This document shows, piece by piece, positions 2,997 to 3,172 of a DNA stretch of 64,000 nt. This DNA comes from Streptomyces sp. NBC_01551 (lineage in GTDB: Bacteria; Actinomycetota; Actinomycetes; Streptomycetales; Streptomycetaceae). Each line of letters begins with the position of its first letter. Within the stretch, counting starts at the first letter, position 1. The notes beneath the pieces were generated by a model. The model saw only the letters and a list, made by a program, of their open reading frames with translations, searched no databases and was not told the origin of the DNA. The translations under genes were made by a program, and so were the position numbers. The stretch is taken from assembly GCF_026339935.1 (NCBI RefSeq), contig NZ_JAPEPX010000001.1, positions 2,276,501 to 2,340,500 on the forward strand, given 5' to 3'.

Positions 2997-3021
2997 CGCG
3001 CGGCGTGAAGGCCCCCGCGCG
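2997..3021 (-). promoter_or_regulatory. Candidate attenuator hairpin between leader peptide and cysO
   Basis: A perfect 7-bp inverted repeat (CGCGCGG at 2997-3003, CCGCGCG at 3015-3021) with an 11-nt loop lies in the 77-nt spacer between the stop of the leader peptide and the cysO start. Its position suits translation-coupled control: ribosome stalling at the leader Cys codons could change folding here. There is no U-tract, so control of translation or Rho access is more likely than intrinsic termination. The role is inferred. Confidence 0.4.
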
Positions 3022-3040
3022 AGGTGGGCTCTGGCTGTAC

Positions 3041-3151
3041 TCAGGCAGCAGCGGGACAGATGGCGCTGGCGAGGCGGCACAGGTCGACGTGCAGCCGGGC
3101 CACGAGCAGCAGGCTGCTGGGCGTCTCGATGCTCACGTCGTGGGAAACCAT
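3041..3151 (-). CDS. Cysteine-containing leader peptide of the cysO-cysM transcript
   Basis: Short reading frame of 36 codons starting at ATG 3151. It begins [11 protein letters not shown] and ends with [18 protein letters not shown], carrying Cys at residues 25 (TGC) and 32 (TGT). The core R-x-H-V-D-x-x-R-[LV] followed by Cys is the pattern of the small 'putative leader peptides' annotated in many Streptomyces upstream of sulfur-metabolism genes. It precedes cysO by 77 nt on the same strand. A TAACAT -10-like hexamer (3163-3158) ends 6 nt before the ATG, so the peptide could be read from a leaderless transcript. I infer that it senses Cys-tRNA or cysteine supply; it is too short to be an enzyme. 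Confidence 0.75.
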
Positions 3152-3172
3152 GCGGTCATGTTAACGATTCCC
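3146..3172 (-). promoter_or_regulatory. Sigma-R-type promoter for cysO-cysM
   Basis: Reading the minus strand, GGGAAT (3172-3167) is followed by exactly 18 nt and then GTT (3148-3146). This is the published consensus GGGAAT-N18-GTT of the disulfide-stress sigma factor SigR in Streptomyces. The predicted start site, about 6-8 nt past GTT, falls near 3139 inside the leader peptide frame and downstream of its ATG. A SigR transcript would therefore lack the leader start codon. CysM is, as I recall, a SigR-regulon member in S. coelicolor. Confidence 0.65.

Follow-up and report, generated by a model that had tools for sequence, protein, structure and literature searches.

What becomes of cysteine control when a stress promoter overlaps the very beginning of a cysteine leader peptide? 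The question arises at the cysO-cysM locus of Streptomyces sp. NBC_01551, which lies in the 64-kb stretch of DNA that was analyzed here as a whole (hereinafter, the window) and in which a promoter of the SigR type extends across the start of a short frame containing two Cys codons. The initial annotation of the locus proposed that SigR, under disulfide stress, makes a transcript that bypasses the leader and its control. Comparison of the DNA of related loci points instead to two overlapping promoters that are each paired with a separate leaderless start codon and would share a single Cys-leader frame, a reading to which we assign a probability of about 0.68. The genes are arranged on the minus strand in the order mec-like gene, 77-nt gap, 36-codon leader, 77-nt spacer, cysO and cysM, with the following features:

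3651-3229, minus strand: mec-like gene (Prok-JAB/desampylase-like), upstream of the leader (Pfam PF14464, 3.5e-30)
3200-3185, minus strand: conserved upstream element TGTGGGATCACACTCC, a possible activator or repressor site (alignment columns -54 to -34)
3172-3146, minus strand: SigR box GGGAATCGTTAACATGACCGCATGGTT, an exact match to GGGAAT-N18-GTT
3172-3167, minus strand: SigR -35 element GGGAAT (motif match and conservation)
3163-3158, minus strand: -10 element TAACAT of the second promoter, 6 nt ahead of the ATG (TA..AT invariant in 109/109 loci)
3151-3041, minus strand: Cys leader ORF of 36 codons (ATG 3151-3149, stop 3043-3041)
3151-3149, minus strand: first leader start codon, ATG, and predicted +1 of the TANNAT promoter (conservation)
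3148-3146, minus strand: SigR -10 element GTT, which is codon 2 of the leader (GTT in 109/109 loci)
3136-3134, minus strand: codon 6, GTG, predicted SigR +1 and putative second, leaderless in-frame start codon (conservation and SigH numbering)
3040-2964, minus strand: leader-cysO spacer, C-rich and G-poor (base composition)
3021-2997, minus strand: 7-bp hairpin with no T-run after it (stem 3021-3015/3003-2997)
2963-2685, minus strand: cysO, MoaD/ThiS-like sulfur carrier (PF02597, 9.9e-19)
2685-1735, minus strand: cysM, cysteine synthase family (TIGR01136, 365 bits, cut-off 344)

The DNA around the start of the leader reads GGGAAT CGT TAACAT GACCGC ATG GTT TCC CAC GAC GTG AGC. The leader, in which the Cys codons are codon 25 (3079-3077) and codon 32 (3058-3056), is a member of the NCBIfam family NF042934, 'putative leader peptide' (37.9 bits versus a cut-off of 27), and this score together with the reading of the ORF bears out the earlier description of a 36-codon frame with two Cys codons ahead of cysO-cysM. 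In a profile search against NF041370, the mec-like gene scored 75.8 bits, under the cut-off of 130. The closest named relative of this cysO is from Streptomyces sp. NRRL F-2664 (98% identity); the window's own genome also has a gene for another CysO-like protein with 60% identity (G000:C1:2872054-2872326), and most genomes of the genus yield two CysO-type matches.

DNA upstream of cysO was gathered from 238 loci, a non-random choice biased to the relatives of the window: 30 loci that ranked best among 295 genomes of the genus and include the window's own; 80 named Streptomyces; 20 family loci, of which 19 represent 16 other genera; a further 40 family loci, 38 of them from other genera; 28 new loci added by searching the whole class (9 in the same genus, 19 outside the family); and a further 40 loci of the same genus. 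Removal of 7 identical copies left 231 distinct loci, and all counts are those of mutually related, non-random rows. By the patterns used, 20 of the 231 are without the layout, namely one N-masked locus (L115) and 19 loci outside the family; among the remaining 211 family loci, the Cys leader is present in 205 and absent in 6. Cys25 is found in 204 of the 205 leaders and Cys32 in 195, and the conserved peptide comprises residues 14-32, ending at Cys32. Four leaders (L085, L094, L204 and L216) contain an extra stretch of similar sequence just ahead of RLHVDLC, which is in frame in L204 and L216.

The box in the window agrees exactly with the consensus GGAAT-N18-19-GTT that is given for SigR and SigH promoters in passages of two papers (PMC9205884, PMC10012870). 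The earlier identification of GGGAAT-N18-GTT as an exact SigR consensus is thereby confirmed; it is the sole exact match within the 64 kb, and a match was present in 6 of 100 shuffles. Genome-wide, GGGAAY-N18-GTT occurs at 75 sites, versus 13 for the reversed pattern. A comparison across genomes, which the initial annotation had recommended, shows the layout to be strongly conserved in the family loci compared: GGGAAT-N15-ATGGTT is invariant at the named bases in 109 of the first 110 loci, and GGGAATC, TA..AT, ATGGTT and the codon-6 GTG are identical in the same number, the exception in each case being the N-masked L115. The S. violaceoruber locus (L107), from a near relative of the laboratory strains S. 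coelicolor A3(2) and S. lividans, shares this layout. Among all distinct loci, GTT is present in 204 of the 205 Cys leaders, and the first G of GGGAAT is missing in 4 of the 204 (L190, L193, L206 and L217, as judged by eye). A GTT located one base later (ATGCGTT, ATGTGTT) is found in several other genera, so that codon 2 encodes Arg or Cys, with the promoter trimer retained and codon 6 still GTG or ATG. Outside the family, one locus (L269) has GGGAAT-N18-GTT directly ahead of cysO; a Cys leader was not found there, and therefore SigR-type control may predate the leader.

In the SigH promoters of C. glutamicum, the last base of GGAAT is at -31 (PMC10012870). Applied to position 3167, this numbering places the predicted +1 at 3136, which is nucleotide 16 of the leader and the first base of codon 6; because the distance from GGAAT to codon 6 is constant, the same +1 is predicted for N18 and N19 boxes. 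The earlier placement of the SigR start inside the leader, past the ATG, is supported by conservation, with the difference that its position is likely 3136 and not ~3139.

All 204 distinct loci that have both a Cys leader and GTT carry a start triplet at codon 6 (GTG in 194, ATG in 10), the ATG being found in two genera, in g2 (L190, L206, L217) and in part of g3 (L223, L227, L230, L236, L240, L242, L244). Taken alone, the constancy of GTG says little because GTG is also the commonest codon for the Val of LVAR (GTG 86, GTC 9, GTA 4, GTT 3 and ACG 3 in 105 leaders); the Val of HVD is encoded by GTC in 103 of these leaders and by GTG in 2. In a FastTree phylogeny of cysO DNA from the 211 loci, the state of codon 6 changes at least 5 times; given that each of the three non-start states (GCC, ACG and TGA) is confined to a single row, two exchanges between GTG and ATG remain.

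Start codons of ORFs of at least 80 codons were also counted at 62 of the 75 SigR-type motif sites of the window's genome. There are 5 ATG starts 5-9 nt after GTT, as against 0-4 per bin in the remaining 5-nt bins out to 100, and GTG starts show no such peak at these sites (4, versus 0-8 in other bins); the ATG peak weakly suggests that SigR genes may be leaderless more generally. In S. coelicolor, 21% of the primary transcripts are leaderless, and AUG is the start codon in 76.4% of those (PMC4895711), which implies that other start codons occur.

These observations bear directly on the proposed bypass, according to which the SigR mRNA, beginning beyond the ATG, would yield no leader peptide and would evade control by cysteine during disulfide stress. 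Such a bypass predicts an unconstrained codon 6, yet this codon is GTG or ATG in 204/204 loci with leader and GTT, Val/Met exchanges included, so that a leader-free SigR transcript is unsupported. Neither does the bypass account for the sole leader without a SigR box (L203), in which GGGAAT, GTT and the codon-6 start are jointly absent. It does fit with the predicted SigR start downstream of the ATG, with the behavior of S. coelicolor cysM, which is scarcely expressed unless diamide is present and responds to diamide by induction with or without ndgR (PMC4340878), and with the existence of leader-free forms, the SigR box being present without a Cys leader in 6 of the 211 family loci. In four of these (L099, L104, L287 and L315), which look alike and may stem from one recent leader loss, codon 6 is GTG; it is ACG in L209 and TGA in L220. 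On balance, the bypass is not the best reading and is probably wrong, even if it appears the least improbable of the alternatives.

Somewhat less probable still is the possibility that codon 6 is kept for some reason other than a start of translation, for example because it matters to the peptide, to the initial bases of the transcript or to a binding site. It is hard to reconcile with the finding that Val is swapped solely for Met, and solely as GTG or ATG, and with the location of the conserved peptide further on, at residues 14-32. The bases adjoining codon 6 (GAC before, AGC after) are well conserved too, as this explanation would have it, but the preceding residue is more variable in other genera (GAC, GAT, GGC, AAG). 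The retention of GTG in the four look-alike loci that lack the leader speaks for it as well, and these rows are of no help to the start-codon reading.

The separate TAACAT -10 element, which the initial annotation had considered to be positioned for a start at the ATG, is supported by conservation: TA..AT is retained in 109/109 loci and its spacing to the ATG is constant at 6 nt in all of them. A TTGACA-like or other sigma-70 -35 element for this promoter was not found. The element TGTGGGATCACACTCC, located ~34-49 nt before the leader ATG, is strongly conserved, and an activator binding there could replace the missing -35; by-eye comparison failed to recognize the published NdgR motif in it. 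NdgR lowers the expression of S. coelicolor cysM under diamide (PMC4340878). The least probable alternative, in which SigR is the sole promoter, TANNAT is no promoter and the ATG is unused, could invoke the missing sigma-70 -35 and the scarce expression of S. coelicolor cysM without diamide (PMC4340878), but is at odds with the 6-nt spacing between TA..AT and the unvarying ATG in 109/109 loci and with the persistence of TA..AT in L203, where the SigR box is absent and the leader is preceded by TACGAT-GAGCCC-ATG with the same 6-nt spacing, and the upstream element could serve an activator instead of a -35.

Both promoter/start-codon pairs are present in the window and conserved in the compared loci. 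Under the reading with two leaderless starts, transcription from the TANNAT promoter would begin at the leader ATG and give a leaderless 36-codon leader, and transcription from the SigR promoter would begin at codon 6 (GTG; ATG in some relatives) and give a leaderless 31-codon leader that, translated from that codon, would retain the entire conserved part of the peptide. As each promoter seems to end on a different start codon of the leader, transcripts from the stress promoter probably remain under leader control instead of escaping it: disulfide stress would increase transcription via SigR, and the mRNA would still have to pass the Cys checkpoint before cysO-cysM. The checkpoint might sense Cys-tRNA or the nascent peptide, with attenuation, for which Rho is a possible agent, taking place within the C-rich spacer. 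It further appears rather likely, if less so than the paired starts themselves, that the sigma factor picks the isoform of the sensor peptide, the two sigma-specific leaderless starts being five codons apart and the sensing part shared; the vegetative and stress transcripts are possibly gated unequally given that AUG and GUG starts differ.

If true, this arrangement would combine a stress regulon with an amino-acid checkpoint on one short stretch of DNA, such that stress sets the amount of the mRNA, cysteine still decides its use, and vegetative and stress transcripts are gated by the same cysteine check. Natural variants suitable for comparison exist in Streptomyces and its relatives, including loss of the leader, loss of the SigR box and ATG in place of GTG. 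The constant geometry also suggests a test, applicable to sequences alone, for leaderless starts under alternative sigma factors, namely a start codon at a fixed distance from the -35 element.

As for the checkpoint itself, the 7-bp hairpin that was noted earlier has a real stem (3021-3015/3003-2997) but is not a terminator: an intrinsic terminator was rejected for want of support, no site with a hairpin and T-run being found in 2900-3300, and TTTT is found in just 8 of the 205 spacers. An unusual RNA fold was likewise rejected, the region from the leader ATG into cysO folding no better than shuffles (z +1.03), as was sequestering of the cysO SD dependent on ribosome position, the SD being unpaired at 0.24 when free, 0.24 with the ribosome stalled at Cys and 0.25 with it at the stop (52 of the 205 leaders, every fourth with a recognizable SD). 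A search of Rfam gave one match, below the gathering score (E 0.35); the consensus fold of 34 spacers sharing GTACGGCCG had a covariation term of just -0.08; and no tandem repeats were found in 2900-3300. In all 205 spacers, C exceeds G (mean 0.49 vs 0.28), as expected of the C-rich, G-poor, unstructured RNA that precedes a gene under Rho-dependent attenuation; among controls, the same excess is seen in upstream gaps (116 of 204), leader frames (132 of 205) and the stretches that follow other SigR sites (23 of 62). This composition suggests Rho as the attenuation agent, and Rho would be the likeliest one because no terminator, special fold or SD switch was found.

Seven other NF042934-like leaders are encoded in the window's genome (L001 and L003-L008), six of them above the cut-off and L008 below it. 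The last Cys is kept in all seven and the first is replaced in six, so that codon 32 more likely serves as the general sensor. Several of these leaders precede sulfur-related genes: the frames that follow them include, by Pfam, a sulfatase, a cysteine dioxygenase, a flavin reductase and a rhodanese, and three of the seven pieces had no Pfam match. Counting the cysO leader, all eight are followed by 80 nt that are likewise C-rich and G-poor. Among these eight, GGGAAT-N18-GTT around the ATG is found only at the cysO leader, an above-cut-off member of NF042934 that differs from the other seven in its SigR box.

The ChIP study of SigR in S. coelicolor is reportedly that of Kim et al. 2012. In an oxidative-stress RNA-seq table, SCO2910, SCO2911 and SCO2912 are listed at 8.46-, 5.24- and 3.43-fold, respectively (PMC4991794). 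In M. tuberculosis, mec-cysO-cysM is reported to be an operon directly regulated by SigH (PMC4803200), that is, the same three genes are under a SigR-type sigma factor; as listed, however, that operon begins with mec, whereas here the SigR box is between mec and cysO, on the leader. The expression passages of PMC4340878, PMC4991794 and PMC4803200 map no transcription start at the cysO leader. Eight leader peptides of S. lividans are listed in PMC8079986, with no cysteine one in the listed passage. In the open literature searched, to the extent of the passages available, neither a bypass of a Cys leader by SigR nor a pair of sigma-specific starts within a single leader is described.

For Cys leaders of Mycobacterium, P. 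acnes and B. longum, Rho attenuation has been proposed (PMC1262725); these are like the leader described here in that there is no conserved terminator hairpin and Rho is the proposed agent, and the passages concerned mention neither the cysO leaders of Streptomyces nor any second promoter. A close parallel in anatomy is provided by the leaderless polycysteine short ORFs that precede cysteine-pathway genes in mycobacteria and are reported to be cysteine-responsive (Canestrari et al., 2020, via PMC13236596). A leaderless Cys leader ahead of cysteine-pathway genes is accordingly of an already known kind, and it is the two promoter/start-codon pairs that were not found described in the literature searched. 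Unlike the run of Cys codons in the mycobacterial ORFs, those of the Streptomyces leader are spread (codons 25 and 32), and the Streptomyces cysO leader is overlapped by a SigR promoter with, as it appears, a start codon of its own.
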